Position numbers and translations under genes: made by a program. A DNA stretch of 64,000 bases. It comes from Gymnopus androsaceus JB14. Lineage: Eukaryota; Basidiomycota; Agaricomycetes; Agaricales; Omphalotaceae. The DNA lies in NCBI GenBank assembly GCA_009733575.1, contig ML769570.1:1-64000 (forward strand). Reading direction: 5' to 3'. The notes below the pieces were generated by a model. That model was not told the origin of the DNA. It did no database searches and saw nothing but the letters and a program-made list of their open reading frames with translations. Shown piece by piece: positions 3,431-60,292 of the stretch (position 1 is the stretch's first letter; every line of letters starts with the position of its first letter).

Positions 3431-5165
3431 ATGATGGTCATGTCCACTAATCTCCCTAGTGAACTTTTGAATCTCATATTCAAGTTCCTGTCCGACACCC
3501 CTGCTGCTTTGAAGGCGTGTTCACTTGTATCAAGGACCTGGCGTGCAGCTGCAGCAACCTTCTTGTTTTCTTCACTTTCTTTCCTGTGCTCCATAGACCA
3601 GCCGATCCCAGACCTTGTTCACTCTAAACTCAAACGTCAGTTTGGACTGGCATATGGTATGCTTCCTGTGTATTGGAAAAGATTTCCTCTATACGAGACA
3701 GATACACATTGCATCTGCAATCGTTACAAGGATCGCACTGCACAGGCATTCTATTACAGCGGAGCTACTTCAGCTCATATCACTTGTAGTGTTGCTGAAC
3801 TGACATTAAAATTCTGCAGAAGCAGCAGCTCCGAGGCAGTTTATCGTGGTCCTCACTCACTGCAACTCTACCCCGATGCCAACATCTCGTCCCTCCTTCG
3901 ACTCGTAGATGAACTCTCTTTTACTCATCTTCGATTCCTCATCATTGACTGCGCGCCTCAGGTGCTCTACTTTTTAAAATCCTCAGAGCCTTTCGGTGGG
4001 ATTCTCTCCTCCACTGGTAACTCTCTGGAGGAACTCACTTTCAGTGGTATCGAGTCGATGCAGAGTTCGGACCTCAAAAGGATGCTGAATAAACACGCAT
4101 TTTCGTGTAGGCGCTTTCCTCGTCTGCGACGGCTTGCCTTGCAGGGGCACCTGGGAACAGAGGTTCCCCCAGAACATTTGCATGGTGGACAAAAAATGAG
4201 CTGCTCTCTCGAGCTCAGGCGTGAACGTTCGACTACCTTTGGAGCAACGTCTGTCTCTGTCGACGTGTCATATTCCTACTGGGATAGTCCACGAGTCGAG
4301 CGCCCTTCGCAGGCCGATGGGTTCGCAAAGTTCGAGATTTCGAATTGGTGCTGCTTTAGTGGGCTTTGTAGTGAATCTAAACCCAGCGGAACTGGATCCT
4401 TGGCCGATGGTATGAGCCTTGGATCCATCGTTAAATGGTCGCTCCCCACCATAGAATCCGTGCTGGGTGCGTTACAGACCGACACTCTAGGTCAATTCGC
4501 GCAGGTGATAGAGATGAAGGTCTCAGCTGAATCGGCGCCCAATAATGGTCTGTACATTGATTATTCCTGAATGATGCTTCAACTCATTTTTCTTCTGTCG
4601 TTCAGTTGCTGGGCCAAAGCTACTTGCGTATATAACACAGACGTTTCCTCGAGTTTCCTCGCTGGCGTTGTGTTTCAGCACAGTAGCCGATATCGGACAA
4701 GTTATTCACCTTGATGACCAAGAAGAAAAATATCCTTGTTCAGCTATCCTTGTTGAACACCTAGCTGCGCTCGGCAAGCTGCGAACGCTCAAGTTTTTGC
4801 TCTCACACAACGCAGCAGCTACGATCGCTTCCTGCCTGACCTATTCTCAGAATACCATCAGTACCACTGCAGATTTCGAGTCTCTCATTCCTCAGAACCA
4901 ACACCGACAAGTCATTTCGGAACTCGACAAATTGTTTGCAGAGCTCTATTTCGTCGGTCCAAAGCTACCAAATCTACAAGGAGCTATCTTGGAAGTTGAT
5001 ATTACTTCGACTGGGATGTGGACTCCTCAACAGCGTATTTCTACTCCTCCGAGTTCTAGTGCCAGTGGGTCTCCGCTAGCGCTATCGATGCAGCAGGAGC
5101 TAGGCATGATGTTTCGAAGAACACGGGCGGCGAGTCCTGATTTTCTGACAATCCGGATTTTGTGA
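3431..5165 (+). CDS. F-box protein (copy A, intact)
   Basis: Exons 3431-4547 and 4606-5165, joined by a 58-bp intron (donor GTCTGT, acceptor TTCAG), give an open frame of 558 codons. The F-box is at the N-terminus, about residues 7-45 (LPSELLNLIFKFL, then LKACSLVSRTW). Its expected role is to bind Skp1 in an SCF ubiquitin ligase, with the leucine-rich remainder choosing the substrate. If the intron is not used, the first exon ends at a stop at 4568-4570 (379 residues). Splicing keeps the frame and gives a smooth join (NN-V-AGPKLLAYI), so I prefer it. Three ATGs lie in the first ten codons and the first is used here. Copy B is destroyed by an insertion. Confidence 0.7.
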
Positions 5166-8725: not shown

Positions 8726-8745
8726 TGGCCTAACGGGTTTGAAAC
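7655..8745 (+). repeat. 123-bp tandem coding repeats (8 units)
   Basis: Eight 123-bp units encode the KR-punctuated peptide. Four are before and four after a Ser/Thr-rich spacer (about 8155-8260). Units differ mainly at synonymous sites and at a few residues (D/N, S/G), as expected of repeats that exchange sequence. Confidence 0.85.
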
Positions 8746-8809
8746 TCAGGTATGTTTTCTTTCGAATTTAGTTAGATGTCACGACTAATGTTTTATTTAC
8801 AGGATGCAC

Positions 8810-12233: not shown

Positions 12234-15200
12234 ATGAGCGATGAACTCTCTCAAAACGCTATGTACGTATAAATTGATATAATCCAAGTGGTGGAAACTG
12301 AACTACACTGGAAGGTGGCATTCTGCCGTTAATGAAACCAGGTGGGTAATGATTAGACAACTACGTTGTTTTCCTATATATGACAATGATCTTCATCAAG
12401 CATGTTTAAAGGAGCCCACAATTTCGAAGTAAAGAATGGCCAATTTGTTATGGGAAACATCACAAATTATCATGTTATGTGTAAGTCAAATGTTGTATTA
12501 TTTAATGTTAAATGACCAACTGATGCTGTACTACTTACTCTGTTGAAGCAAATGATTCAACCACCGTAATCCGTGATTGGCTCAAAACACCTGATTGCTC
12601 AGTCAATTTTCAGACAGCTGTTGACAAGAAAACAGGTGGTACTGGCCAGTGGCTTTTGAATCATCCCAAGTATAAGAATTGGATAGAAGATTCCAGTGTG
12701 TTATGGATTCAGGGCAAAGGTACTAAGAGATGACTTCTTGCTAATTATTCCAGGTGGCTCACGTTGCACTTTATAGCTGGATCAGGAAAAACTTTTTTGG
12801 CGTAGGTTTATTCATAAACACCACAGATTGTTAATGAAATCTTTTTATAGGACTACTATGATTGAAAATCTTCACAAAAACACCATCAGGGATGTGTGGT
12901 ATCATTACTTTGATATCCGTGATAATACTACGTTGAAATCAACATACCGAGGTCTCTTGTTATCTCTTTTGCAACAGGTAGGATCCAATGCATATGGAAT
13001 CCACTCTGAGCTTGGAAATCTCTATCATAAATGCAAGCAGGGCCTGTCAGTTTCACAGCCCACAAACATGGAGCTAGAGGATGTCCTGAAAAACATATTT
13101 CACAGTGTTAGGCTTGGATATGTGATACTGGATGCTACGGATGAATGCCAAGAGAAACACAAGGTTTTCAAATGGTTGAATGACATTGGAAGCATTGGCA
13201 ATCTTCATATTGCCATCACAAGCCGTGATCACATTGGGGTGAATGCAACTAGAACTTCCCAGCAAATTTTCCTGGGAACAGAGAGCTCAGGGGTTGAAGA
13301 AGATATAGCTCTGCATCTTGACAGGGAAATAATCAATTATGGATTCAATGAAAAATTGCAAGAGCAGGTAAAAGAATCCCTGATAGCACAAGCTCAAGGC
13401 CAGTGAGTTGTTTCTAGAAATACTTTGAGGGATAACTTTTGATTAATTTAACTCAGGTTTCGCTGGGTAGACTGTCAACTCCAAAGGCTAAGTCAATGTG
13501 GCTCTCCCAAGTCTGTTCGGAAAGCTTTGCAAAAGTTACCAAAGGATTTGGAAGAGACATATACATTGGCTGTGCAAAAGGCTCTTGAAAGTGACAATGC
13601 AGAAAATGCTCATCATGTTCTTCTTTGGCTCACTTATGCATTTGAGCCACTGAACACTAGACAAATAGGTGTAATTCTGGCCATTGATTTGGAGGCAGAG
13701 CAAGTTGAGGAAGAGACACAAATGGATTTGAAGTTGGATGTAATCCTTGACTCTAGTCTTGTTGCTGTGGATCAAAACAACATGGTGCAGCTTGCACATG
13801 CATCTGTGAAAGAATTTTTGATCAATAGACACAGTATTGGACATTCATTCAAAATTAACATGGAGCTTGCTCATGAGAAAATAGCACAAACATGTCTCAT
13901 CTACTTGCTACAATTTTTGGAGTGTAATGACTATTTTAAACGTAGATCCGTTTGGCAGAAATCAACTTTGTTTGGTGATTATGCAGTATTCCAATGGCAC
14001 TCTCATGCAAGGATAGTGGAAGAAGTAAACCAAGATAGTGCAGTCACAAGATTGACTGAAATGTTATTTCAGAATCACTTATTAAGAGCCTGGATGGCTA
14101 GGTACATTGAGAATCATGATGCTGATTCTCTTGTTGAACCACTATATTGGGCTACAGTATTAGGTTTAGTAAAAAGTGCAGAGCTGCTATTGGCAAAAGG
14201 AGCCAATGTGAATGCACAAGGGGATCAAGGGGGTGGAAATGAGAATGCCCTGTACAGAGCATCCACCAATGGCCATGAAGGCATTGTCAAACTTCTCTTG
14301 GACAAGGGGGCTAATGTGAATGCTGAAGGGGGTAGAACCTATGGGTCTGCTCTTCAAGCAGCTGCTGCTAATGGTCATGAGACCATTGTCAAACTTACCT
14401 TACAAAAGGGAGCTGATGTGAATGCTCCTACAGGAATGTTTGGACATGCCCTTCATGCTGCTGCAGCCAATGGTCATGAAGCTGTTGTCAAGCTGCTCTT
14501 GGAACAGGGGGCAGATGTAAATGCTCAAGGGGGTGAATATGGGAATGCACTTCAAGCAGCTGCATATGATGGTCATGAAGCCATTGTCAAGCTACTCTTG
14601 GAGAAGGGGGCTAATGTGAATGCAGAAGGGGGTCGACGCTATGCCCTTCAGGTAGCTGCAGCAAATAATAATGAAGTCATTGTCAAGCTTCTTTTGGAAA
14701 ATGGTGCTGATGTGACTGCTCAGGGGGGAGTATATGGGAATGCCCTTCAGGCAGCTGCACGTAATCATGACAAAGCAATTGTACAACTTCTCTGGGAAAA
14801 GGGAGCTGATGTGAATGCTCAAGGAGGACACTATGGGAATGCCCTTCAGGCAGCTGCAGCCAAGGGTCATAAAGACATTGTTAATTTTCTCTTGCACAAG
14901 GGGGCTGATTTACATGCACAAGGGGGTACATATCAGAATACCCTTCAGGCAGCTGCATACAAAGGTCGTGAAGACATTGTTAAGCATCTTGTGCATTGGG
15001 GTTTTGATGTGAATGCTCAGGGATTTCATGGGAGTGCATTAGTGGCAGCTGGATTGGAAGGACATAGAGCCATTGTTGAATTTCTTTTGACAAAGGGTGC
15101 CAATGTAAATGCTCAGGGTGGTAAATATGGCAATGCCCTTCAGGCAGCTGCATTCAAAGGCCATGAAGCCATTGTCACACTTTTCTTGCAATGGGGTGCT

Positions 15201-16001
15201 GATGTAAATGCTCAAGGTGGGCACTATGGGAATGCCCTTCAGGCAGCTGCAACTAAGGGTCATAAACACATTGTCAATTTTCTCTTGCAGGAGGAGGCTG
15301 ATGTAAATGCTCAGGGTGGTGAATATGGGAATGCCCTTCAGGCAGCTGCATACAATGGCCATGAAGCCATTGTTAAGCGCCTTGTGCATTGGGATGCTGA
15401 TGTAAATGCTCAGGACAATGAACATGGGAATGCCCTTCAGGCAGCTGCATACAAAGGTTATAAAACCATTGTTTGCTTTCTTTTGACAAAAGATGTTGAT
15501 GTAAATGCTCAAGGTGGTAAATATGGGAATGCCCTTCAGGCAGCTGCATATGAAGGTTATGAAGCTATTGTCATGCTTCTCTTGCAATGGGGTGCTGATG
15601 TAAATGCTCAGGGTGGTAAATATGGGAATGCCCTTCAGGCAGCTGCATATGAAGGTTATGAAGCCATTGTCATGCTTCTGTTGCAATGGGGTGCTGATGT
15701 AAATGCTCAGGGTGGTGAATATGGGAATGCCCTTCAGGCAGCTGCTGCTACATACTATAAAGGCTATGAAGCCATTGTCATGCTTCTCATGCAATGGGGT
15801 GCTAATGTAAATGCCCAGGGTGGTAAATATGGGAATGCCCTCCAGGCAGCTGCATATAAAGGTCATGAAGCCATTGTCGCACTTCTCTTGCAATGGGGTG
15901 CTGATGTAAATGCTCAGGGTGGTGAATATGGGAATGCCCTTCAGACTGCTGCATACAAAGGTCATGAAGCCATTGTCATGCTGTTGGAACATCAAAGGTA
16001 A
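12234..16001 (+). CDS. NACHT-ankyrin NLR-like protein 1 (3' end cut by a solo LTR)
   Basis: Exons 12234-12262, 12401-12480, 12549-12719, 12777-12801, 12851-13402 and 13457-16001 join in frame. The order is a short N-terminus with the basidiomycete-type MFKGAHNFEVKNGQF, a linker ending VLWIQG, Walker A KAGSGKTFLA split across exons 3-4, a Walker B-like YVILDATDEC, a winged-helix-like FRWVDCQL...LPKDLEETY region, then about 18 ankyrin repeats of 33 residues (consensus GADVNAQGGxYGNALQAAAY). Fungal STAND proteins of this layout act as NOD-like receptors: the repeats sense, and the NTPase oligomerises to trigger death or conflict responses. No classical effector domain is visible at the N-terminus. 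The last repeat is interrupted by a solo LTR that supplies the stop at 15999-16001; a further repeat survives beyond it. Confidence 0.85.
14155..15981 (+). repeat. 99-bp ankyrin-coding tandem repeats
   Basis: About 18 units of 99 bp. The later ones (15100-15980) are nearly identical over most of their length, including GGGAATGCCCTTCAGGCAGC in unit after unit, while a few codons vary. High internal conservation of this kind is known for rapidly evolving fungal NLR repeat domains. Confidence 0.85.
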
Positions 16002-16349
16002 TGTTACTATCACTCTATACATGGAACACTTTCTCATAGTCTCCACTTGTTTGTATCACCACCCCATGTACTCCACATCTATTGTCTTGCAGACTCCACT
16101 CAGTCTCTTGTTGTATCCACCTACTATCTTGCAGTACCTACTTTACCATATGCACAGTAGCCACAGACATTCACACAGTAGCCACTTGCCTGATATACTG
16201 TATCATTTGTACATAGGGCTGTATATAATAAGCCTGGGTACTATACCTTGTAATACCACCATTGTCCCCCATTGATCTGTGTGATTGTTCTACTAAGTCC
16301 TGTGTGGACTTACTGCTGCTACTTCCTATTTAGGAATGTAACTTTAATA
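15982..16349 (+). mobile_element. Solo LTR, 368 bp, inside the NLR ankyrin array
   Basis: The ankyrin unit is interrupted between CATGC (15977-15981) and a second CATGC (16350-16354), a 5-bp target duplication. The inserted 368 bp begin TGTTGGAAC, a typical retrotransposon LTR start, and contain a TATA-like GTATATAATAAG. The 3' end reads TTAATA with CA supplied by the duplication. No coding internal region is present, so a solo LTR left by recombination is the simplest reading. Confidence 0.65.
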
Positions 16350-22110: not shown

Positions 22111-23450
22111 TTTTAGCGCCTATTTCATTTCTTTCCCGCGCCCCGCATTGCTTCCGACTTGTCACTTCGTTTCCTCATTCATCTAGAATGACCTCTTCAG
22201 AATATTACGCATATATGGTGGAACTTCCTAAAACACAGGATGCTCTAGAGAAGCCAGAAGAGTGGAACAAGCAGTGGGAAACTCTCGTTTCTTCGAAAAG
22301 GCTGTCTCCTGCGTTTTCTCTCGAAAATGACTGCCTTAAATATAGTTTGAAAGCCAATGGTCTCCCTATCCGCAGATTCATAGTTCCAACTTCTCTCCAG
22401 CACTCTTGATATGCGGTTGCGTCTGTCTGTATTCACGCTACAGGATTTTGATGCCAAATGGATAGCGGCGTCAGTGGCTACAAGGAGAACCCACGCATTA
22501 GTTGGAATCTCGGAGGCATGTTCTGGTGCTCGCAATTTGAATGATTCTAGAATGCTCACAGGAGACATTCTGACCTTGAATCACCTCAGCCTCGACGGAA
22601 ATATTCTTATCGATTTGTGGAAAAGCATCATTGTAGCCAATGGTGACCCAGCTGCGACTACTCTCCAGAGCTTCCCTGGTAAATCCTGGGAGGCATTTCT
22701 TAAATCACAAGAGAATCGACCTTCCGATAAACTGAGAGAAAACGTTCTCGGTGAAATGAAGGCTTTACGCACGAAATTGATTTGTCAGTAACTTGTCTCT
22801 TGCCCACTTATAACGGACTGAACATTAATATTTACTTTCTCTAGACTACGTTGTTTGGTTCACCTCCTACTCCTTCTTGGGCATCCCTCGCCCAGCAATC
22901 ATGGTACGAAAAAATCACGGCATCAATCGTAATCGTACAGATGCACAAAAAGAGCGGTCCAAGCTTGCAAAGGAGATTCGAAAGATGACTTTGGGTAATG
23001 CGACGGCGAAGCAGATTTGCAGAGAGGACAGAGCTGCTGGCTTGGAGCGCATGAGTACCCGAATGGAACAGTGTCAGCATTGCTTGAGGGGGCAATTGCC
23101 TGAGGAGAAATTTCAACGCTGTAGCCGGTGCTGGGATAAACTGCAGAGGAGTGTCTACTACTGTTCCAAGTTTGTGTTCTATCCTTGTTCGACTTTCTCC
23201 AGTTAACCGATAGTTTCCAGAGATCGTCAGGTTGCCGCGTACAAGCCTACTCATAAGGCTATATGTGGAAAAGTCCTTGATGTCAAGACTGCGACGGCGG
23301 CTGCCGCATCCTCAGTATCGCCCGCCAAAGCGCCCGGAGGACGCTGAGCTCCTTCTGTAGCAAGTTTACGTTCTTGCTCCCGTAATCCTTGTTTGTATCA
23401 TATATGTAAGCTTCACTCTAAAGTGTTTCTTTGTATAAATGTTTTAAAGG
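22111..23450 (+). repeat. MYND-gene duplication, copy 1
   Basis: 22111-about 23450 matches 37926-about 39290, including about 75 bp of promoter (from tagttttagcgcctatt) and the 3' flank through gtataaatgttt. Together with the F-box segment it marks a duplicated module. Confidence 0.9.
22188..23347 (+). pseudogene. MYND zinc-finger protein (copy 1, frameshifted)
   Basis: Same exon structure as the intact copy at 38012-39166, but two bases are missing in a TCTC run near 22360 (ggtctccc against ggtctctccc). The frame therefore ends at 22409 (NGLPIRRFIV...). The remaining exons still encode the MYND finger (CQHCLRGQLPEEKFQRCSRC...YYCSK) and the C-terminal HKAICGK. I read it as recently disabled. 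Confidence 0.75.
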
Positions 23451-23580: not shown

Positions 23581-24175
23581 AACGCCTCTATAGACTGCTT
23601 GATGAAAGGCATCGGCGTTGAATGCTGCCCGTCCATTTTTATTGCATTTCTTTTCTCTTAGAGCGCCGCAGTTTGGGTTCTTTTGAAGAATTGAGTGCAC
23701 AAGAGCTCCTTGGAACTAGTTCTTTCAAAGGTGCACTTCGCTGTTGAATTTATTGTGCGGTTCGTTTGGAAGGGTGTAGCCCGAGTACATTTTATGGCCT
23801 CTGAGTCGTCGCATTCTTGGCACTTTGATCGACTCATCATCAAACGTTGGTGTGAGTCACTCCAGCTACTGGAATCGAGTCTACATACCATATTCCACTT
23901 ATAATCGCAGAATATCAGCGAAAGCTTCACTATATTTCCAAAACAGTTCCATAGATGTACAAAATCATTCAAAATACGTCCTCTTCTGCAGCTTTGTAGT
24001 TTTATTTTGGTTTTATTCATTTTTTTCCCTCTCTTTTCTCAAGGACTCAGGATGAGCCCTTGTAACTGTAGTAAAACCTGTGTCCCTGAGAATCCATCAG
24101 CACTAGCTTAGGCATGACTAGTTAGCCGGGATGCAATGGATATTGTACTCACATGACACTGCTGAACACCTCGCT

Positions 24176-24558
24176 TTAGGGGCAACCAGAGCATGAAAAG
24201 GATGCAATTGAGGTCCCCGTGTCAACATGGATACACCCATCCGATTCATTGTCCTCAAAGAGGAAAGATTCACCTCCGCAGTTGGCATCTTCAAAGAACG
24301 TTGTACAGAATTCCGCGTCGGGGATGGCAATCTATAACGTATATATGAACAAGTAAGTAGCAAATCACCAACAATTGTTGTTGAGATTCAACTGACCTCG
24401 AAAGAGTGTCGATTGGCGAAGCTGTGGCAGCTGCCATCGCAAAGGACATTATTGCCTTCACTACCGTCGCACGTAGTTCCACTCCAAGCAATGAAATCTT
24501 GGGCAGCACTGTTTGCGATCATGTACAGAGCAGTGAAAAGGTGGCAGTGGCTGAGATG
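24176..24558 (-). pseudogene. Small secreted cysteine-rich protein (copy B, frameshifted)
   Basis: Second copy of the gene at 601-993. Intron and cysteine pattern are kept, but one base is missing from a C-run in the signal-peptide region (ACCTTTT against ACCCTTTT in copy A), so the frame from the normal ATG closes after 14 codons. The C-terminus also differs: it ends CSGCP rather than CTHCI. An internal ATG could restart translation only without a signal peptide. It is either a pseudogene or a single-base sequence error. Confidence 0.6.
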
Positions 24559-27283
24559 TGCATTGTGAAAACTTGGACTGTGCAGCGAGCTCTGAAGAGA
24601 TGCATATTGCCTTAGGGTGGTATTTATACCTGAAATTGAAAATAATACTGTTCACAGCGTGAGCTGTGACATGGTGAATAAACGGTCGAAATAAGTAGCT
24701 GAGAGCCGATGTTACATCTCTAAAAGTTTGAAAGCCGTAATTTTTTAACAGTGAAGAGGATCAAATTTCAGCTCGGAAGAGGTATCGCTCCCTTAGTACT
24801 GAGCTGTATCCTACCTATCTCCTGTCCAGAAATATCTTCGCCCTTGGATAAATCAGAAGTCGATCACCTCGGGTTCATCATTCCTAACTCCAAGGATATC
24901 TTTGCCACTTCGATAAATCAGAAATCGAGTACTTCGGGTTCATGATCAACTCCAGCCCGCGATGAATCCAAAGAAGCCCAAAATGATCTCCGACGGCGTC
25001 GCCAGTAACCCGAAAACTCAGAGACTTTAGCTCTAGCAACTTCTACCATTGCTTCATTGAGAACTATTCTCGCATCATTCTATCCTAACTGACCTTTCAA
25101 GTTCTCAAAAAGATACAGTTTTTATTTCGTCCGAAGATTCAAGATTGCGGATGTTTCTATTTGTGATATGAAACAACTCCGAAATATCGAAAAATCTTTC
25201 AATCACTTCTTTCAACTTTGAGGTTGCTGGTCGGATATGCCCCGCAATGGCACCGGATCTACAGTTATGTCAAACCAGGTTCCTTCCTAAATCCGAAGTT
25301 GAGCTTCAGTGTCTAAGGCGGATGATCCAAATATGACTTCACTGGTGGTCACTTAAGACCTAGGAGTGGCACTGAGGTCCCTCATATAAAAATAGTGTAA
25401 TGTAGACTAGTTTTTCACTGGAGGCAATATGGACCGTTACATTATGTGCAATAACTTCTCAATGGCCCCCCAGCAGCTCAGGTGGGTTCGCATTTTCGTA
25501 TTCCCGCTACCCCCGAAAGTACTGTGTGTTTCGTTGTAGACTAGTCTCATGGACCATTACATTCTTCCAAATAACTTCCCAATGGTCCCGCAACAACTCC
25601 GGTGGGTTCACATTCTCGTATTCCGGCTGCCTTCAAAATATACTGGCAGGTTAATTGAGAAGAAAGAACGTCAAATCCCTGGACCAGTTCGGCACAGTAA
25701 AAGCTTCATACTCCTCGACTCATAGCATAGAGAAGCTCTCTTACGATACAATTGTCACGAAATCCGAATTGTCAGAAACCCAGGATTCGCCGCCCATGTT
25801 CTTCGAAACATCATGCCCAGCTCCTGCTGCATCCATAGCGCTAGCGGAGACCCGCTGGCACTAGAGCTCGGAGGAGTAGAAATATGTCGAGGGGTCCATA
25901 TCCCAGTCGGGGTAATATCGACGGTTCTGAATTTATCACTAGTTCTTTCAAAGGTGCACTTTGCTGTTGAATTTATTGTGCGGTTCGTTTGGAAGGGTGT
26001 ATCCCGAGTACATTTATAGCCTACCGTCTACATGGAATTATGCACTTGAATACATTGGAGCTTGGTTCAGTGTTGTGGTGGGCATCAAGATAATACTTAC
26101 AACCCTAGGTAGTGTATATAGTGTATATCATCAGGACATGTATTAATTAGTTTGGCATTTGTGGTGGGGCAACGATCTACAGCAGCGTCTCCATATAAGG
26201 CAACTCTGAGCTCGTAGTTGTCTTGCCCCAGATGGGGATGAAAGGACTAGTGCCGCACTGGGATAATCTCCGGAACTGATCCGGCGTTCAGCACTTGGCG
26301 TGATAAAACCTTCCTACGGTTTGATAATAGGCCCATGTCCTAAGTCTGTGGATTTGACAAAAAATTCAAGTTTTTCAAGTGTCAAAAAAGGGAAAAAAGA
26401 AAGAGAAAAGAGGGAGTTTATTAAGCTATACCTCGATGTATTGCACTAGTTTTTAGGGTCCGATATACTTTGTATCTCATATAACTTGCATGTCCCAAGT
26501 GAAATCAAGATGATTTCAAGTCGCCGGGCCTACCCGCTTTGAATGGATATGACCCAAGTTCCGATATGGAATTATCCCCGAATAACCTTAGGACCTAGCC
26601 AATGGTTTTCAAGATTTTACAAATCGGCAGCGGCAGGAAATTAGCGCTAAAGGCTTTATAAGCGCTGCCTGGCACTGGTTTCGAATCTCACACGGTTTGC
26701 TCACGGAAACTTATTTTTAAAATAAGTTTGTGTTCAAATTTCTTCAAAGTTTCTTCATAGAGGGCTCATTTTGAAGCATAGATATACGCTACTTATAACA
26801 ATTCGATCCCAAAGCCTTCATTCTAAAAAGTCAACTTCCGCAACCCTTGCTAAAGTGCTAAACTGTGCTATGAGGAAGTCCGAAGGTATCCTGTTTCTCT
26901 GTAAGTTTTCACTTAAATTTCTCCGAATGAGCTCGTTTTAAAGCGTAAAATATACCCTGCTGGTGCTATATTAACTGCTCAAGCTTCTCTCTGAAAGCTG
27001 CATCCCTAGACCCTTTGCAAGTTTGGGAGGAAGTATGCCCTTTTTCAGTGAGTTGTGGTTCAAATATAATCATTGAGGACCATTTATGAAGCGTAGATGT
27101 ACATTTTTAATGTGGATTTCATGCACTGACACTTAATTTACATACCCAATCTTCAGACCACTTACGAGTTGCACTATGTACCGTTATCCATAAGAGACAA
27201 ATAAGAGAGGTAAACATTTTCTTGGTGGGAATATCACTCAATGGTTTTGTCAAGGACTTGTTTTATACATCAGACTCTATGTA

Positions 27284-28878
27284 CACTCGCGGCCAAAACT
27301 GATGAACCCCCCGTTTTCGGAAATTTTATTCCCACGGCTCCAAAATTCATTGCTCCTCATCGTTCTGGCTTGTAGTACAGTGGATTGAACTCTTGTACCT
27401 CCGCTTTTTCATAGCCTAGGTAGTAAATACATACATCCGGTGAAATACCAAATTCCAGAGGTTGAAAGACCCAAAACTCCGCCAAGGAAGCATGAAATTA
27501 CGTCTGACCCCATAACAACCTTCAACCATGTTTGCAACGCTACGAGATCCTCACAAACAGCCCAAAGACTACACCAAATGCACACCTACAAAAGTCCGTG
27601 CCATCCTGATCTATCGTGATGATGAACAGATGTCTTGGAACCAGATTCTCGCCCAGCCTTTATTTGCGGAGACCTCCATATCAAAAAAGACAATTAAAAA
27701 GCACTATCGTGATGCGAAAGCACACGACGATGATTGCTATTGGACTGGGAAGAAGGCAGAACCTGGTGGGAGGCCTCGAAAAATCAGCAAAACCACTTTA
27801 GAGGAGGTTACGAACCAGTTCGACACAGGAGAATTGCGTGATGGAGCACATGCACAACGTCACTGCTTTCCTGATGTTTCTGAGCGCACAGTCTGCCGAA
27901 ACCTTTGCGAAGTTGGTTTTGAGGGTTTCGTGCAGCCAAGAAAGCCCTTATTGAAGCCGGAGCATATTGTTGGCCGCCGTGTTTGGTGGAACAATCATCT
28001 TGCTTGGGAGTCTCCGGAGATTTTCAACCAAAACATGATCATCTTCTCAGATGAGAAAAAGTTCAAGCTCGAGCATTCAGATGGGCGGCAATACTGTTGA
28101 AGGAGGAGAGGAGAAGGCCGATTAGATGTCCATTGTGTCCAGAAAAGAACTTCGCATGGGGCTGGAAAGGGAAAAGATAAGGGAAGTGTGCTTGTTTGGG
28201 CTTGTATTGGACCTTGGGGTGCTGGACCCATTGTACGGCTGACAGGGCTGGTGAATTCCGACCAGTATATTGAAGTTCTCGAGGCCAACTTACTCCCCTT
28301 CCTTGCTATACTTCCGCCTCGCCACCCCAATAATTTCTTCTTCCAGCAGGACAACGACCGTAAACACACATCCAAAAAGACCACAGCATGGCTCACCGAG
28401 CACCATACTCCAACTCTCCCTTGGCCTGCCAACTCTCCCGACCTCTCACCCATTGAGAACACTTGGCATGAAGTCCAGCGCCGTGTCCGCCTAAAATGCC
28501 CAGATCTCCTTGATTCCGACCAGTATTTTGAGGTTATAAAGGCTGAATGGCAGTCAGAGGACTTCCAGGGATATGTCCGGCACCTGTATCAATCCTTCCC
28601 TCGATGTCTTGTTGCTCTGCGCGAGAACAACTTCTCATGGATTGGTTATTGAGAGTTTGTAGATTTTTGGCACATTTCGAAGTTTTTCTTGGGTTTTCTT
28701 GGTGACAATCATGTATTGTATATAGATAAGAGTATTGTACAAAATTTCTGTACAAAAAGATGATGAATTCTGGCCACTGCACCTGCCAGCGAAGCGGACA
28801 ACGAGAAACGACGAGGTCTGGGAGCCGTGGGAATAAAATTTCCGAAAACGGGGGGTTCATCAGTTTTGGCTGCGAGTG
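27284..28878 (+). mobile_element. Tc1/mariner-family transposon, 1595 bp
   Basis: About 60-bp inverted ends (CACTCGCGGCCAAAACTGAT at the left, the mirror at the right with one early mismatch) are flanked by TA duplications (27282-27283, 28879-28880). Size, TA target and the internal transposase are typical of Tc1-like elements. It sits inside the 2.9-kb TIR element. Confidence 0.9.
27528..28652 (+). pseudogene. Tc1-like DDE transposase with one nonsense codon
   Basis: One frame of 375 codons including the terminator, broken only by a TGA at 28098-28100 after HSDGRQYC, where relatives commonly have Trp (TGG). The N-terminal part has helix-turn-helix-like sequence (ISKKTIKKHY). The catalytic acids are visible in IIFSDEKKF, FFQQDNDRKHTS and SPDLSPIENTWHE, the DD34E pattern. 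The family cuts and pastes at TA sites. A single G-to-A change explains the stop, so the insertion is young. Confidence 0.85.
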
Positions 28879-29276
28879 TATACTAATTCTACCTCAAAGA
28901 ACCATTTTCTCAATGCATGTCAAGTGAAACTGAGGTTGGGTAGTATACTTCAAGTATACTTATTGCTATATTTAAGATTACATGCAAGTTACAAGTGACA
29001 TAAAGCAGCATAAGGATGTATTAGAATGTACAATGCTCCAGCCAGGATTTTACACCCCAGTTTGGGAGGATTGCTTAGACTACTTATCAGTAATTTCGCG
29101 TGAGGAATTAAGTGCATGCGTGAACTATCTAATCTAATTCAAGGCCAACGGCATCATTCCGATTTTAGCTTATCTCGGAGGAAAGCGGCGATGTCAGCAG
29201 ATATACGTCATCAATCAAGTCCTAAGGTACTTAGGCATCCACAGATGTGGGATATGGGCCTAATAATACATCATAG

Positions 29277-29368
29277 ATACTCGGCATCTGGAAAAGTAAC
29301 CGAATTTTTTTTGCTGGGCCGTCTAAGTATATCAAAATCCGGTTACTACTGTTCCAGATGCCGAGTAT
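29277..29368. mobile_element. 92-bp hairpin (MITE-like) element, copy B
   Basis: Counterpart of 2784-2872. The left arm is unchanged over 26 bp; the right arm has changed (TACTACTGTTCC for TACTTTTCC), so the hairpin is now imperfect. Confidence 0.55.
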
Positions 29369-29766
29369 ACGGGCTCACCTGTCCTCGCTGACCCAGCGTA
29401 GTAGAAAATCTATGATACACCCGTTGTATACGGATGGGTATCAAGCTGAAACATGCCGCAGGAAACGCAGTGAATCGTAGCATATAGGTAGAGAATAAAA
29501 TCGAGGTGTCAAAGGAGGCAAGTTCAACAAACAAAATCGCTTAGTAATAGTATGTACGCTTATCATCGTGTACGAGCGCTTGTCATCTGAGTGTTCAACC
29601 TTCTAGCAGGTAGAAGTTCTTGCTCTTTCTATTCTTCTTCGATAGGCTCTTATGGATCTTCGAAGTAACTTTTTCACTTCAGAAGTTCATCTACAGTATC
29701 GCAGGGGAAAGATGCGCGCATCTTCGCCTCAAGTTTGCCTTATTCCAGGTAGTCCACACCATTTTG

Positions 29767-30200
29767 GAGGCCCCCAGAAACTCCCCCTAACTCTTGTCCG
29801 GCCAAGCGGCCTCAAGTACGCTATGATTTTGGTCTCAAATACGCTATTTCGGACAGGGACGGTCACGTGAATTCGAAAAAAATCGCGAAAAAATCAAAAT
29901 AAAACCCAAAATAATCCTGAGCGAGCCCTACTGGCCTCTGTACACTTTCAAGAGACGGGAACACGTTCTTCAGCGCTTTAGCGCTTCCACAGTCCTTCAT
30001 GCTTCATGCTTCTTTAGCCAAGATACCTTACATTTTTTCGGTTCGGCCCTCGCGCGCGAACCTAAAGTACGCTATATGGGATGGCAGGGAAGCAAGTTTT
30101 TTGGCCTCAAATACGCTAAAATAGGACAGGAAAATCGTCAAAATCGCGACCTAAAATACGCTATTCCGGACAAAGGTTAGCGGTAGTTTCTGGGGGCCTC
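29767..30200. mobile_element. 434-bp non-autonomous TIR element with five internal direct repeats
   Basis: Begins GAGGCCCCCAGAAACT and ends with its inverse; similarity of the ends continues for about 35 bp to TTGTCCGG. ATTTTG is duplicated at both sides (29761-29766, 30201-30206), and copy A has the single uninterrupted site near 3241-3250. Inside are five same-strand copies of a motif near CTCAAATACGCTA (about 29811, 29834, 30061, 30105, 30150), some followed by GGACAGG. It has no coding capacity. Confidence 0.8.
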
Positions 30201-30890
30201 ATTTTGGTCCTTCATCTTTGCGGAGGCGTATACATTGTAGCATACGGTAGCGAACTTGTCGGAACTTCTGCCAAAGGCACTTGTATCGTATAGTATGTCC
30301 GAAATATATCTGCTCGTAGGTATAATATCTTCCAACACACGTACTTGTAGGTTCTCACTCATGCCCACCTGATTCTCTCTCGGATGATGGTCATGTCCAC
30401 CAATCTTCCTAGTGAACTTTTGAATCTCATATTCAAGTTCCTGTCTGACACCCCTGCTGCTTTGAAGGCGTGTTCACTTGTATCAAGGACCTGGCATGCA
30501 GCTGCAGCAATGTTCCTGTTCTCTTCTCTTTCTTTCCTGTGCTCCATAGACCAGCCGAATCCAGACCTTGTTCACTCTAAACTCAAACGTCAGTTTGGAC
30601 TGGCATATGGTATTCTTCCTGTGTATTGGAAAATATTTTCTCTACACGAGACAGATACACATTGCATCTGCAATCGTTACAAGGATCGCACTGCACAGGC
30701 ATTCTATTACAGCGGAGCTTCTTCAACCCATATCACTTGTAGTGTTGCTGAACTGACATTAAAATTCTGCAGAAGCAGCAGCTCCGAGGCAGTTTATCGT
30801 GGTCCTCACTCACTGCAACTCTACCCCGATGCCAACATCTCGTCCCTCCTTCGACTCGTAGATGAACTCTCTTTTACTCATCTTTGATTC

Positions 30891-31067
30891 TAGGCCTGAA
30901 GCTGACCCCTCTATGAGGTTGCCGTTATAAAATGAGGATCCTCGATAGAGGGGCCTGTAAAGCGGAAGCAAAATTTGGCGGAGACTTTTTAAGCCCGATA
31001 TATTCTCTAAGGATTTCCTAAACGGGATCGGTCCGTTAGGACCGTTTGGGCGCCAATGTAGAATTAC
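30891..31067 (+). repeat. Left terminal inverted repeat of the 6.0-kb element
   Basis: Contains a hairpin (arms 30906-30918 and 30940-30953), a conserved central block (ggcctgtaaagcggaagc onward) and a palindrome CGGTCCGTTAGGACCG at 31029-31044. Confidence 0.9.
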
Positions 31068-31144
31068 TTGTACACTTACTTCGACGCGTCGCGTCGACTC
31101 ATTTTCTTGTACATGACACGTTCAAACGCGACTATTTTCATTCG

Positions 31145-34100
31145 ATGGATCCAGAAAAATTGTTTGGCGAGTTTGCTTTGACGAATTACACGTATGAAAG
31201 CTCTGGAGAAGGAGGAACATCCCAGATGACATTGGATTTTGGTCGTCCGAAGCAGAAGAGAAATAGGAAGAAGAGGAAGGATTTGGAACCCACATTCAAA
31301 GTCCCTGATTATCCTCAGAATCTCACTACACCTCCGAGTCTTTCAATTCCATCTTCATCATCATCGATGCGCGTGCCGCAAATGCAACAATCAGATCTTG
31401 CCACATCCACTCTTCCTCATTTAACTCTGCTTCCACCTATATCAGATCTTGATCTTGACGAGCCGTTTGCCTCTCCAGATCAACATAGACGACCTCGAGA
31501 TCATCAAACTGCTCTTGGCCTTTTTACCAACTCTCCTTATTCTACCCCTTTGGGCACACTTCCAACGTCGAAAAATCTTTCCTGGAGTCCGGAAACTCCT
31601 GGTTTAATATCTCCATCCGACTTTGACTCCATCAGCTCACCCAAAACTACACTTTCAACACCCCAATCAGTGTCACGGTCATCTCGCTCGGGCTGGAATA
31701 TTATTGGTCCAAATGATTTTGATGGTGACGGCTATGTTAAGCCTCAGGTCCATCATCGTCGCCGTAACCAAGCTACTATCAAGGAGGATAGGCTTTCCCA
31801 GACTAAAGCAGCTCTCAAGGCTCTCGATGAGCTGGGTATTTCACTGTTTGAAGTTGTCGAGACAGTCCTTGACCCTCAGCACTCTGAGTTCTTTCAGACT
31901 CAGCGAAACGCATTCTTTCGACATAACTCGGCTGTCATACCACGTATTCTTACCTCCATATTTGATGATCAAACAGGCTACCAAAGCTTTGTCAACTGGT
32001 TACCCGAAAACTTTATTCGAGACCAATTCTGTCACCAGATATCTCGCCAGATGGAGGCCGCAAAACCATTCTCTCACATGAATACGCAGACATTCTCTGT
32101 TGAATTTTTGGAAAAGTATGATCTTCGGAGGAACGTCGTGTTATATGCAGAGAAGAATCTTGGTGACTGGATGTATGCGCTGAAAGCAGCGACAGGGTGC
32201 CTCAAGTCGCAAAAGAAAGAAACTGAAACTGAACTAGTGAGTGTAGTCTCTCATTCTATTCATTTCTCATTGCATTTCTACAGGGTCATCTGATTTTGAC
32301 ATGCCAGGTAATGAACTTTTGCTCATTGCAGTGCTCGCAGCTTCAGTACCTACTGGGAATGTTTGCCTGGTCAACCGGAACATCTGTACGGACCATACAG
32401 GTACTTGATGCAGCCAGTCTTTCTGTCTCACACCCAACCATATTCAAGACCATTGATTTCGTTGCTGGTCAGTCTGTTGACTATGCCCGTTCTTTGTCCT
32501 TTGATTCTCATATCTTTACCTACGACAACATGGACATGTCTGGCTCCGAACATGTTGAACAGACAAAGGATGCAGTCAGCAAGGTTAGATCTGGCTGTTT
32601 TTCACTCCTCTACGAGGCCAATGGGGTCAAAGAGCATCAGCACATGCTTCTGGAACCAATCCTTCAGAATCTGCGTAGAGCAATTCCTCTACAACTCTCG
32701 GAAGTTCAGCCAACTCGGGTCCAATTATCATCGTATCTTCACCAAATGCTAGTAAATATTATTCACTTCCTAGGCCGGCGTCACAAGATGTTTGCTCATT
32801 TACTCTTGGATCCTGAGCTTCAGCATAAGCCACGCCGCCAGTCACCGCCAAATACAAAAACTAGGTTTATTCCACTTCGTACTACCACTATAGAAGAGAA
32901 ATCTGTCAAGGGTAATCTCGAAAACCATGATGATTTCTATACTCGTCAGATGGGTCGTGATCCGATGGATCCAGAACTATCAAAATGGGCTGTCCCATCA
33001 TTCAACGACCAACTAACCAACTCACGAATGCGCAGCTGTGTCATTGCTCGACAGGGTGATCTGAACCCTTGGCTCCGGCGGTTGATCTTCCAGCTTGGCA
33101 TCGCTATTTTTCATATGCTAATGAATCTAATCTGGGGATTACGGATAAAGTACTATGGTACTCGCGATGCTCCAGGAAGTCTAGTCTATTTTTTCACATT
33201 GATGGACAAGAAACATTTGGCTGGGGAGAAACCAGATTATTACGCACTTTCCCATGCACTACTACAGATCCTCGACGGAATCCTTCTTGCTGGCTGGAGG
33301 AAAGAATGTGGATACAGTTCTCTCGAAGAGTTTGCAGCTTCGGATCCTCAGCCTGAAGAGCTTAAAGCTATCGCTTCACGTATCCTCCACAACTATTGCA
33401 CTCCATTACCAGAAAATTGCAAACAAGTATCCATTTTCCCAGCAGCCGCAAAGGTGGCTGTTCCAGCACCGCCGCCACCACCTACACCTGTATCCCAGTC
33501 TACGCCTACAGCTAAACCCATATCAAAAAAAAAATCTAAATCTAAACCTGAACCCGAGCCATCCGAACCGGAGGACGTATGCCATCGCAATCTGCGCTTA
33601 TTAGCTCGGGATCTTCTTGTCATTGCAGAAGTTACCGCAGCCATTCCTCGTGGTGACTTTGGTTAAATTGAGGATCTACTCCCCAACCTTGCTTGCATGT
33701 TTCGCAGTGTCGGCTCAAACAAGTATGCTGTCAAGATTATAACATTGCTCTACAATCTCAAACATGTATGGCCTCCCAAATTCGCGTTTGTACCATTTGT
33801 TCTATTCAGTTGCCAATTTCACTCATGTTCAGACAGCGACATTATGAGAGATAATCACCTTGTCAACATTTCTGGCATTCCCGATCACTTTATGGCAATC
33901 GACATGAACATTGAACACCATATTGGATATGTGAAGGTATGTGTACTGCTCTCATGAACAAGTTTTCTATTCAGCTCCCTACTTATAGAGTACATACGCA
34001 ACAAAAGGGTTGTATGCTGACTGGGACCATCTCAGCAGTGTCTCTGCTGCAATTGTTCACATCCAGGAAGGTAAGAAGAAGGTCGGGAAGATGGTGGATA

Positions 34101-34417
34101 CCTCATACCAGAGGAAGTCTGGCTTGGCAGTCAATACTGATGATTTGGTATGGGAGGTTGTATGGGCTATTGAACGGGAAGGACTACTTGATAATGATGT
34201 GGAACGGAAGACAGATAGGCCGCTTGCCCGAGCAACCGATTCACTAGTTGATGGGTCTCACAAACTAAAAGTAACAGTTGCAGCACTCAACAGACGGACA
34301 AATAAGCTCTGGGGAAGTGGACTTGCTACGGTGGAAGATGAGGATGAAGACGAAATAGCTCCAATGCAATGGGGAGCAGATTCAGGTGAAGAGGAGAGTG
34401 GCGAAAAAGATAAATAA
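31145..34417 (+). CDS. DUF6589 protein, putative transposase (one internal stop)
   Basis: Exons 31145-32236, 32284-33785, 33837-33936 and 33989-34417 join in frame, about 1040 residues. The ATG at 31145 (MDPEKLFGEF) was chosen because the upstream in-frame ATG lies inside the TIR. The N-terminal third is low-complexity. The DUF6589 region follows, with LLGMFAWSTGTSVRTIQVLD, FTYDNMDMSGSEHVEQ, IFHMLMNLIWGL, FRSVGSNKYAVKIITLLYNL, IMRDNHLVNISGIPDHFMAI and IEHHIGYVKSTYATKG, and an acidic tail. An in-frame TAA at 33664-33666 (RGDFG|IEDLL) is the only break. The conserved D in YDN and the His/Asn patch could be catalytic, but the biochemistry of DUF6589 is unknown to me. It lies tail-to-tail with the helicase gene. 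Confidence 0.8.
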
Positions 34418-34422
34418 AAATG

Positions 34423-36674
34423 CTATTTCTTACTATTACGAGACTGTTTACTTTTACTTTTACGGGGCTTGTTAATTCGAACGGGATATGCAGTATCAAA
34501 ATCTCTAATCACCTCAAAAACTTTTGTTGCCCATAATTCTGCAAAATCTCCATCCGCCTGCTCGTTCACTGCATTGACAACGTCCTTGGGAGACTTGAAG
34601 TTGATCGGGTGTATTGAGCAAAGACTTGCGATGTTTGCGTCGCTGATAATGAGATGCTCGGGCCAGACATCATGCAATGGATCCTGTTCATGCTCAGCGT
34701 AGCGCCACCTCAGCAAGTGTTCTACCAAAGGTTTCCGATGCTCTCCTTTTCGCTTCTTGCTGGAATAGTCTGTAGGAGCATCCTTGTCGTTATCATCCAC
34801 TTCATCCACTTCCGAGTCCATATCATCATCATCTCCCTCCAAATCATCCCTCTTGCGCTTGAGACCTGGCGAGTGATCTTTCCAAATCGGTCCAGGAAGA
34901 TGTTCCTGAAGGCATAACGGTTTAGCATGAGCACATCCGTCACAGCACCATGCATTGTAGTCAAGTCCTAAAAAAACTGTCAATCAACCCATAAACTTGA
35001 AAAGCGAAAGGAATACCTACGGGTAGATGAACGATTACAAAAGTATTCTGCTCGATATTCACGAACACAGGGGGCCAGAATGCTCTCGAGCCCAGAACGT
35101 GAAAGTCGTTCACGTTTATTTGAGCCCTTCTTCAACATCGTCCGCGGTTGGTTGGGATCATCAGAAAAGGTGGTATTCTTGTTGTCAAATTCTTCGATTT
35201 TGATGTCGAGTACCCATGGTTCATATAGGATGAGATGAAGTGCACCGAGTCCATCACGACCGCCACGTCCTTTACGCTGTTCATCATCTGTAGGTTCAAC
35301 AACACCCACGTTAGCGGTGATACGAACGTCTGGATGGTCGATTCCCTAGCTCTCTCATCAGTGGGAGATTTATGCGTACATTTGAAAAACAAATGTACCG
35401 TTGATTCACCAGATGTAGCACAAAGGATGCGGCAGGGTCCATCTGGCTCTGTGAATTCCTGGTGAACTATATCAAGATACGTTGAGGACATGTCACTGTA
35501 GTAATGGCATGCAAAATTGGTTCCTTGGAATTGCGGGGGAGCATTCTGATTTATGAACTTTGCAGCAATCCGTGCAAGAGTTGAATTATCAAAGAATATG
35601 AGGACGCGAGGCTGGTCGTGAAGGGTGCCGTTAGGTGGGAAGGGAGTTCGAATGAAGCAAAGATAATTCTCCAGGGTTTGAAAGCTTCCTACGACACAGT
35701 GTCGCGCGTAAATAATATCGGCGCGATTGACACAGTGATTAATGAGTGAATAATCGGCCCCGATTAGCATTTCAATGGTCTTCTGAACATGAGGAGGGCA
35801 GGTTGCTGTAAAACCGTGAAAGTATACAGTTTTGGGAGACGCATTTTGAGCTCCGACAGGCGTCCCCAAGAAGGTCGGAAAGGTGGAATGCCAAACCGCT
35901 CCATGCCAGCATAGTGGACGAAATGGATTTCATCGATGTTCAAATGTGCAATACGATGGGTAAAGGAATGATCACGGAGGAGGAGAGCGAATCGGCTATG
36001 GTGCCCTTCAGCTGACTTGAATAACTGTTCAGCCGTTACAATGAGATGGCGTGCGGTTCCAATTTGCGAAGAATTCTTGTGGCCATTGTGAATTCGGTCC
36101 TACGACAATGTTAGATTAGATTCAAGAATATATATCTAGATCATACCCTCCAAAACTCCTTCTTTTTTGGGGTATCGTGGTTTATTGAAATAGTCGGAAT
36201 CTGATACTTTGTAAGGAAGGTTTCTACCTAGATAATTACAACTGTTAGTAAACCCCATGAATAAATGATAGTACAAAGACATACCTGTGTAACCTGAAGC
36301 CGTTTGAGAGGTGATATCGTTATAAAAATCTTGTTAGACGTTGACTTCTCCAACAATATCAACAACGCCATAATGTGTGTTTTCCCGAAACCTGTTGTCG
36401 CGACAACCAATGAATTCCGCTCAATTGAGGCAATTGCAGCCCTCAACTGCAGCTCCTTGGGAGTCTCCTTTCCTCTAGTTGCGTAATAGACAAGTATGCA
36501 CAGTTTCAAGGCGATGATCTGCTTGGATTCCGCGAGGGTGAGGATGTACATGAGAGGTGCCTTGCCTCCATTTCCATGTTGCATTACGGAGAATTCACAA
36601 CAGAGGGTATCAAAGGAGGCATCCCTGATTAGATCCATTGCTTCAGAGCAAGTAAGCGGATATATTAGAGCCAT
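34423..36674 (-). CDS. RecQ-like superfamily-2 DNA helicase of the element (frameshifted)
   Basis: Exons 36674-36285, 36227-36147, 36099-35399, 35345-35021 and 34967-34423. Motif I is VVATTGFGKTH. Motif II is LNIDEIHFVHYAG followed by FRPSWGRLSEL, as in RecQ. Motif III is HGFTATCPPHV and motif V RILCATSGEST-GIDHPDVR across an intron. Motif VI is EQRKGRGGRDG. After these come Cys residues (CVREYRAEYFC, then WCCDGC) like the RecQ zinc-binding subdomain. The C-terminal part is acidic, then Lys-rich. One base is missing near 35835 (LPK|TVYFHGF), so this copy is shifted. The start at 36674 lies just inside the right TIR. Role inferred: unwinding during transposition. Confidence 0.8.
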
Positions 36675-36721
36675 GCGTCACCGCCTGCGCGACGCGTCGA
36701 GGAAGTAAAAAACTACAAGTT

Positions 36722-36898
36722 GTAATTCTACATTGGCGCCCGATCGGTCCTATCGGACCGATCCCATTTAGGAAATCCTTAAAAGATATAACGGGCTTAA
36801 AAAGTCTCCGCCAAAATTTGCTTCCGCTTTACAGGCCCCTCAAGCGAGGATTCTTGCGAAACAACGACAGCCTCCTTGAGGGGACTGCTTTAGGCCTA
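36722..36898 (-). repeat. Right terminal inverted repeat of the 6.0-kb element
   Basis: Mirror of the left TIR. The hairpin arms are 36836-36849 and 36871-36883. The palindrome at 36741-36763 is longer here (CGATCGGTCC...GGACCGATC). Confidence 0.9.
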
Positions 36899-37612
36899 CT
36901 TCGATTCCTCATCATTGACTGCGCGCCTCAGGTGCTCTACTTTTTAAAATCCTCAGAGCCTTTCGGTGGGACTCTCTCCTCCACTGGTAACTCTCTGGAA
37001 GAACTCACTTTCAGTGGTATCGAGTCGATGCAGAGTTCGGACCTCAAAAGGATGCTGAATAAACACGCATTTTCGTGTAGGCGCTTTCCGCGTCTGCGAC
37101 GGCTTGTCTTGCAGGGGCTTCTGGGAACGGAGGTTCCCCCAGAACATTCTCATGGTGGACGAAAGGTGAGCTGCTCTCTCGAGCTCAGGCGTGAACGTTC
37201 GACTACCTTTGGAGCAACGTCTGTCTCTGTCGACGTGTCATATTCCTACTGGGATAGTCTACAAGTCGAGCGCCCTTCGCAGGCCGATGGGTTCGCAAGG
37301 TTCGAGATTTCGAATTGGTGCTGCTTTAGTGGGCTTTGTAGTGAATCTAAACCCAACGGAACTGGATCCTTGGCCGATGTTATGAGCCTTGGGTCCATTG
37401 TTAAATGGTCGCTCCCCACCATAGGATCCGTGCTGGGTGCGTTACAGACCCACACTCTAGGTCAATTCGCGCAGGTGATAGAGATAAAGGTCTCAGGGAG
37501 CTTCTGCTGCGCCAAACTGGTCCAGAGGATACGACATCGTGTCTTGTGCGGAGTGACAACAGGCGTGATGGGTTTCGAGATAATTTCCGGAGTTTCTAGG
37601 GTGCCTCAATAG

Positions 37613-37925: not shown

Positions 37926-39290
37926 CAGCGGAGTAGTTTTAGCGCCTATTGCATTTTTCCCACACCCCACATTGTTTCCGACTTGTCACTTCGTTTTCTA
38001 ATTCATCTAATATGGCAGAATATATCGCGTATACAGTGGAACTTCCTAAAACCCAGGATGCTCTAGAGAAGCCAGAAGAATGGAACAAACAGTGGGAAAC
38101 TCTTGTTTCTTCGAAAAGGCTGTCTCCTGCGCTTTCTCTCGAAAATGGATGGCAGCAATATAGTTTGAAAGCCAATGGTCTCTCCCTATCCGCAGATCTA
38201 TATTTCGAACTTCTCTCCAGCACTCTTGATCTGCGGTTGCGTCTGTCTGTATTCACGCTACAACATCTTGATGCCAAATGGATGGCGGCGTCAGTGGCTA
38301 CAAGGAGAACGCACGCACTAGTTGGAATCTCGGAAGCATGTTCTGTTGCCCGCAATTTGAATGATTCTAGAATGCTCACAGGGGACATTCTGACCTTGAA
38401 TCATCTCAGCCTTGACGGAAAGATTCTTATCGATTTGTGGAAAAGCATCATTATACCCAACGGTGACCCAGCTGCGGCTACTCTCCAGAGTTTCCCTGGT
38501 AAATCCTGGGAGGCATTTCTTAAATCAGAAGAGAATCGGCCTTCCAATAAACTGAGAGAAAACATCCTCGGTGAAATGAAAGTTTTACGCACAAAATTGA
38601 TTTGTCAGTTTTGTCTCTTGCCCATTTATAACGGACTGAACATTAATATCTACTTTCTCTAGACTACGTTGTTTGGTTCACCTCCTACTCCTTCCTGGGC
38701 ATCCCTCGACCACCGATCATGGTACGAAAAAATCACGGCACCACTCGTAATCGTACAGATGCACAAAAAGAGTGGTCCAAGCTTGAAAAGGAGTTGCGAA
38801 AGATGTCTTTGGGTAATGCGACGGCGAAACAGATTTGCAGAGAGGACAGAGCTGCCGTCTTGGATCGTATGAATGGCCGCAGGGAACAGTGTCAGCACTG
38901 CTTGAGGGGGCAATTACCTGAGGAGAAATTTCAACGCTGTGGCCGCTGCTGGGACAAACTGCAGAGGAGCGTCTACTACTGTTCCAAGTTTGTGTTTATC
39001 CTCTTGTTCAACTGTCTCCAGTTAACCAATAATTTCCAGAGATTGTCAGGTTGCCGCGTACAAACCCACTCATAAGGCTATATGTGGGAAGGTCCTCGAT
39101 GTCAAGACTGCGACGGCGGCTGCCGCATCCTCAGTATCGCCAGCCAAAGCGCCTGGAGGACGCTGAGCTCCTTCTGTAGCAAGTTTACGTTCTTGCTCCT
39201 ATAATCCTTTTGTGTATTATATGTGTAATCTTTGCTCTGTAGTGTTTCTTGTATAAATGTTAGGATTCTAAAGGTCCGTCCGTCTTCCCT
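37926..39290 (+). repeat. MYND-gene duplication, copy 2
   Basis: Matches 22111-about 23450 over promoter, gene and 3' flank. Confidence 0.9.
38012..39166 (+). CDS. MYND zinc-finger protein (copy 2, intact)
   Basis: Exons 38012-38603, 38663-38987 and 39040-39166 join in frame into 347 residues. Introns are GTCAGT...TCTAG and GTTTGT...TCCAG. The N-terminal 200 residues (MAEYIAYTVELPKTQDALEK...) have no family I recognise. The MYND finger lies near residues 270-325 with CQHCL, CGRCW, YYCSKDCQ and HKAIC, the zinc ligands of a protein-interaction domain. The tail is Ala/Ser-rich and ends APGGR. Upstream lies the duplicated F-box segment; copy 1 at 22188 is broken, so this is the functional version. 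Confidence 0.85.
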
Positions 39291-59910: not shown

Positions 59911-60292
59911 TCACTGCATCAAGTAAATGTTCAATTATAAGCCTGGTGAGTTCCTATATAATGAATACCTCCTCTGTACTGAATCCTGACTATTCTAGTT
60001 AAACTTAAGAAGTGTACTGATACTTCAATAGCCATTTCTGACCAGATCAAACTCTTCCTTTCAATAGCCCATTTGGTACTACTAAAATATATAGTTTCTG
60101 TTGAAGTAAATGTAGTGTTGAAGTTGTATTGAAGCAAGAAAACTTAGCACTCGATTTACTTATCCTGAAAAATGTATTTAATTTTGCTGTTATTGAAAGA
60201 ATGTCTGACCCATCAGTTTTCAAACTAAATGACAAGCAAAATGAAATCATATATTTTAACCATGTTTCAACTTTCAGTTGTATGAATAAAAG
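59911..60292. other. AT-rich spacer downstream of NLR 2
   Basis: No gene. It ends in GAATAAAAG, the left copy of the 9-bp duplication flanking the next element. Confidence 0.5.

Follow-up and report, generated by a model that had tools for sequence, protein, structure and literature searches.

Background

The closest described relatives of the element treated here appear to lie in the Academ superfamily of DNA transposons, whose lineage AcademH was reportedly described by Kojima in 2020 (Mob DNA 11:15). According to later papers citing that work, AcademH is the helicase-encoding Academ lineage, with target duplications of 9 or 10 bp, and AcademX a nuclease-encoding one, with duplications of 3 or 4 bp (PMC10045372); AcademH is recorded at low copy in Basidiomycota, Ascomycota and Mucoromycota, and DEAD plus Helicase_C domains are assigned jointly to AcademH, KolobokH or Helitron (PMC10799480). 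Further papers describe putative nonautonomous Academ elements as widespread in Marasmius oreades (PMC8290104), and KolobokH as a fungal Kolobok lineage with a RecQ helicase, Kolobok elements duplicating TTAA and having RR...YY ends (PMC9587614). Here we analyse 64,000 nucleotides of the basidiomycete Gymnopus androsaceus JB14 (the window; GenBank contig ML769570.1, positions 1 to 64,000, within our contig C188), in which an element of 6008 bp at 30891-36898 combines a gene of the family DUF6589 with a gene for a RecQ-like helicase. It is very probably a decayed two-gene DNA transposon of AcademH type, in which DUF6589 would be the transposase and would act with the helicase.

Mushroom genomes harbour DUF6589 as a large family without a label; in the host genome (83 Mb in 934 contigs) 115 stretches match it, grouped in 59 clusters. 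Literature searches returned no paper for DUF6589 and only an unrelated optics paper for PF20231. If the family consists of DDE transposases, many genes of "unknown" function would leave the gene counts of these fungi, and the elements would offer a simple cause for part of the helicase richness of mushroom genomes.

The window element and its target site

The bounds of the element and its target, in window coordinates, are as follows.

30882..30890, unstranded: 9-bp target duplication on the left side, CTTTGATTC, which departs by a single C-to-T change from the right copy and from the empty site
30891..31067, + strand: left terminal inverted repeat (TIR), starting with TAGGCCT, with at least 42 matches in the host genome
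36722..36898, - strand: right TIR, with AGGCCTA at its end, from inverted-repeat comparison
36899..36907, unstranded: 9-bp target duplication on the right side, CTTCGATTC, identical to the empty site
3929..3937, unstranded: uninterrupted target CTTCGATTC, single copy, within an open reading frame (ORF) of 379 aa in segmental copy A

The architecture proposed in the preliminary description, which had been read from the sequence of the window, held in every part: the two TIR arms, 177 nt each, are 85% complementary, the flanking 9-bp copies differ by one mismatch, and the target stands uninterrupted in segmental copy A, whose flanks are 96.4% identical over 691 bp and 96.3% identical over 598 bp to those of the occupied copy B. 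The ORF of copy A (3431-4570) passes through the target site uncut; that of copy B (30384-30887) is shortened by the insertion to 167 aa and has an F-box-like match at E 1.7e-8. The insertion breaks an F-box gene in copy B, and the frame of copy A stays open. The number of matches of the left end in the host genome, together with the 9-bp duplications at all ten two-ended insertions of the family (below), indicates that the ends are more than a chance resemblance. Segmental duplication in this part of the window joins 1-4526 to 23581-37496, with about 85-96% identity, piece by piece.

The two genes and the state of the window copy

The genes are convergent and 5 bp apart, as had been described, their stops lying at 34415-34417 and, on the opposite strand, 34423-34425.

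31145..32236, + strand: exon 1 of the putative DUF6589 transposase gene, with no family match of its own
32284..33936, + strand: exon 2, with the first D at 32524-32526 and the second D at 33007-33009
33989..34417, + strand: exon 3, with a weak PF20231 match
34423..36674, - strand: RecQ-like helicase gene, in pieces 36674-36285, 36227-36147, from 36099, from 35345, and a last one ending at 34423, inner splice sites partly fixed

Splice sites of the DUF6589 gene were proposed by eye from GT/AG signals and frame. The Pfam family PF20231 matches two pieces of this gene with E 1.3e-48 and 1.6e-17; a third, C-terminal piece reaches E 0.008 and fails the cut-off. Near 35830-35838, in the piece from 36099, the reading frame of the helicase gene shifts; read across this point, the product matches Helicase_C (6.6e-9) and DEAD (9.7e-9), and 11 PDB sequences are matched at E up to 0.01, all of them BLM, RecQ, WRN or RecQ4, by which the partner is judged to be of RecQ type. 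The DUF6589 frame carries an in-frame TAA at 33664-33666, and its codon at 33733-33735 specifies Lys at a conserved position, which is Glu in the siblings on C613, C242 and C239 and likewise Lys in the C101 copy. We take the window copy to be inactive, and presumably unable to move itself any longer, because of the in-frame stop, the change of the catalytic Glu to Lys and the helicase frameshift.

Two further DUF6589 loci deserve a remark. The one on C136 (L050), picked for its long frame, is broken by a small element at 2985-3710 with an 8-bp duplication, ATCTGCTG, and no TIRs were recovered around this locus. On C101 (L029), a 1-kb inverted repeat of 89% identity (2976-3978 and 8085-9070) encloses a DUF6589/helicase pair.

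DUF6589 as a candidate DDE transposase

The comparison of a predicted DUF6589 structure with known transposases, which the preliminary description had proposed, favours its idea that DUF6589 is the transposase. A model built from an alignment of 100 sequences (pLDDT, the predicted local distance difference test, 93) has an RNase-H core with D, D and E at the canonical places and a helical insertion; its best matches among solved folds are Hermes, the P element, Tn5, Transib and RAG1, a list from which the absence of a family does not exclude it. The alignment holds 100 of the 130 proteins found, the remaining 30, mostly short or near copies, having been dropped by choice; it supersedes an earlier model from 11 sequences that was too poor (pLDDT 51.7). 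A protein search using the first alignment had found 2 proteins, and a Marasmius protein (P0058) is among the DUF6589 matches; a relative in Stygiomarasmius scandens is an uninterrupted protein of 1046 aa. In sequence comparison the 11-row profile had no match among PDB sequences at E up to 1, the 100-row profile matched only 2 glucosidases there (E 1.7), and 3 DUF6589 proteins had no NCBIfam match. Taken together, the predicted fold, the conserved D-D-E triad and the association with ends and duplications make a transposase the best reading of DUF6589, and a likely one.

A regular helicase partner

Across the host genome, helicase matches form 67 clusters, which we compared with the 59 DUF6589 clusters at a pairing distance of 6 kb; a DUF6589 fragment on C90 lies outside the 115 stretches and 59 clusters. 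A helicase cluster lies within this distance of 32 of the 59, where about 0.7 would be expected by chance, with 28 pairs convergent, 4 divergent and none on the same strand. Helicase_C matches contribute 4 more convergent pairs (about 0.9 expected), so that at least 36 of the 59 clusters are paired and none of the 36 on the same strand; the figure is a lower bound because the helicase searches scored the best candidates only. Of the 67 helicase clusters, 35 lie farther than 6 kb from any DUF6589 cluster. The regular RecQ-like partner in opposite orientation, foreseen in the preliminary description, is thereby borne out.

Two families of ends and their derivatives

The preliminary description had proposed a test for TAGGCCT-type ends and 8-9-bp duplications around other DUF6589 genes; ends were recovered in two diverged DUF6589/RecQ families. 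In family 1, to which the window element belongs, 9-bp duplications flank all ten insertions with two correctly facing ends (C188, C43, C374, C212, C657 with its second haplotype C643, C667, C82, C33, C253 and C142), with one mismatch in two of the ten; the count leaves out a wrongly facing pair (L033; C33:41500-42800), the second haplotype L008 and 12 single ends. The duplications stand directly outside TAGG...CCTA, one end on C657 reading TAGGTTT. An exact empty site for the C212 copy was found on C515 (99% over 294 bp), the C212 flank itself being repetitive. The matches that span the C667 and C82 junctions (92% and 91%) are paralogous repeats and make a weaker case than C212, and for three of six junctions (C43, C33, C253) no empty site was found among the best 40 of 188 candidates, which were the ones scored.

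Several family 1 copies are deleted. The one on C667 retains much of the helicase but of the DUF6589 gene just the beginning, and the one on C82 only the outer parts of both genes. Copies of 971 bp agree to 99.1-99.4% between insertions, and the haplotypes C657 and C643 agree to 100%. The shared ends and duplications, with the near identity of the 971-bp copies, point to deleted copies having moved in trans, some of them recently. Left and right TIRs compared without gaps are 84-92% identical in the window element and on C43, C374, C657, C667 and C82, and 98-100% identical on C253 and C33, two family 1 copies standing outside this comparison; TIR divergence does not appear to be a simple clock. 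At L037 (C142:912-1019) two fused ends form a mini-element of 108 bp with a 9-bp duplication, GGTTTCCTT, possibly near the minimal movable unit.

Family 2 (C141, C601, C13) has its two genes divergent and ends TAGGCTCG...CGAGTCTA. Perfect 9-bp duplications, ATTCAAGCA and GAATAAACC, flank the family 2 derivatives on C72 and C26; reading by eye gave no duplication at the full-length elements on C141 and C601. Duplications were thus seen at two of the four family 2 insertions read, and further facing end pairs of this family exist outside these four. TAG...CTA ends and 9-bp duplications are common to both DUF6589 families. The ends of elements on C4 and C176 were not located.

Hairpins near the ends

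Each end of the window element can fold back on itself.

30906..30957, + strand: hairpin in the left end with a 13-bp stem, from the alignment of 24 ends and folding
36832..36883, - strand: hairpin in the right end with the same stem, arm letters changed pairwise relative to the left end, from alignment and folding

The alignment comprises 24 of 29 distinct family 1 ends (33 collected), the excluded ones being the truncated L036, the two fused ends of L037, the second end of L034, a near copy, and the second L006 end, with one G fewer in the stem. In the 24 ends the 13-bp stem begins 15 nt from the terminus. When the three outer pairs are included, 96.1% of cells pair, with changes on both sides in 13 cells at 3 pairs; once the partner is slid along, at most 63% still pair. 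None of 500 shuffles came up to the real alignment in pairing, changed cells or covariation score, a test that kinship among the ends weakens. In family 2 the left-type ends on C141, C72, C26 and C601 have arms CCGTTCTCCGA/TCGGAGAACGG; those on C13, CCGCTTCCAGA/TCTGGAAGCGG, differ at four positions, all of them matched. Fold z-scores against shuffles lie between -2.1 and -4.4 in 10 of 11 ends. Hairpins with covarying arms near the ends of such an element are possibly new, and would make the role of a helicase in a DDE transposon directly testable.

What the hairpins do is a separate matter. They fit a single-stranded or replicative step without proving one. More specifically, RecQ might melt the ends, each of which would extrude its hairpin, and DUF6589 might cut by it, making this a DDE transposon with structured single-stranded ends; recognition of a folded single strand would account for the presence of a helicase gene as well as for the covariation of the arms, and we advance it as a speculation that is itself unlikely. 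It is quite conceivable, if short of an even chance, that the hairpins are unselected, either because palindromes correct themselves through templated replication errors, quasi-palindrome correction being a known mutational process, or because kinship of the ends inflates the signal. In 31 of 500 shuffles there are as many doubly changed pairs as observed (3), the consensus fold owes its stability mainly to energy (the covariation term is -0.45 of -18.55), and the left end on C601 folds no better than its shuffles (z -0.99), all of which favour this explanation; against it, family 1 and the left-type ends of family 2, which differ in arm sequence, both have the stem some 15 nt inside the terminus. 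Inspected by eye, the 108-bp element at L037 has kept the outer but not the inner arms of its stems, so that a complete stem at each end is perhaps not a strict requirement, although the halves of this element can pair together.

Classification and alternative identities

The helicase partner, the 9-bp duplications (9 or 10 bp in AcademH) and the basidiomycete host agree with the published descriptions of AcademH (PMC10045372, PMC10799480), and for this reason the element is most likely AcademH, a membership resting on helicase and duplications and on AcademH as known by description from citing papers. A helicase beside the transposase is represented here by the pairing of at least 36 of 59 clusters, the duplication length by 9 bp at ten of ten family 1 insertions, and a DDD/E transposase by the predicted fold and triad. 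To the known AcademH kind our analysis would add DUF6589 as a transposase and the matched end hairpins, both useful and testable. In the mechanism we favour, DUF6589 would bind the element ends, cut at the TAG ends and join them to the target with a 9-bp stagger, the repair of which would make the duplication; the RecQ helicase would act with it, most likely opening or remodelling the ends (hairpins included) or intermediates after the cut, and deleted derivatives would be mobilised in trans.

The preliminary description had instead proposed an undescribed superfamily. In that case DUF6589 would be unrelated to Academ, and its helicase partner and 9-bp duplications would have arisen by convergence; the empty literature search and an Academ likeness known by description speak for this. 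Since published accounts of AcademH already combine a helicase, 9-10 bp duplications and Basidiomycota hosts (PMC10045372, PMC10799480), we regard it as distinctly unlikely, and the claim of an undescribed superfamily is not supported. DUF6589 genes lacking a helicase neighbour had also been flagged as telling evidence: at 23 of the 59 clusters none was found within 6 kb, which weighs against the AcademH assignment as well as against a new superfamily, and loci without a helicase may well exist. KolobokH shares the RecQ helicase and the fungal host but differs by TTAA duplications and RR...YY ends (PMC9587614), as against 9 bp without TTAA and TAG...CTA here, and is hardly to be entertained.

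DUF6589 could also be cargo, the ends being moved by another transposase, for instance a Mutator-like or hAT one. Mutator-like elements have long TIRs and duplications of about 9 bp, a likeness that recommends the idea, whereas the helicase partner sets the present element apart; no Mutator transposase was matched by Pfam in the element pieces, a scan that a remote relation could escape. Given that DUF6589 itself has a predicted DDE fold and triad, that the Pfam scan of 8 element pieces revealed no other transposase, and that TAG...CTA ends with 9-bp duplications recur in a second, diverged DUF6589 family, we hold the cargo explanation to be very unlikely. hAT (Hermes) and the P element resemble DUF6589 in the RNase-H core and the helical insertion before the last catalytic residue, but identity in the aligned parts is 7-11% and neither a hAT nor a P-element Pfam match was obtained. 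Both transposon groups make 8-bp duplications, and neither is known to have a helicase partner; hAT was rejected, despite the similar fold, on the missing Pfam match and on duplications of 9 bp, not 8.

Two other candidates were set aside. Helitrons have an HUH nuclease and neither TIRs nor target duplications, both of which the window element has. The AcademX nuclease is XPG; this lineage is excluded by the 9-bp duplications and by the lack of an XPG match in the element pieces (Pfam). All 11 XPG_I matches in the host genome are more than 6 kb away from any DUF6589 match. Weaker XPG-like nuclease matches occur on C64, C221, C620, C684, C310 and C821, away from DUF6589 and with internal stops in four of the six; the stretch on C620 has a 411-aa ORF at its match.

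Other features of the window

A further segmental duplication of the window joins 22361-23431 to 38181-39250 (91-93% identity). Tandem arrays occupy 57300-59976 (13 copies of a 198-bp unit), 14347-16035 (99-bp step) and 7661-8680 (123-bp unit).

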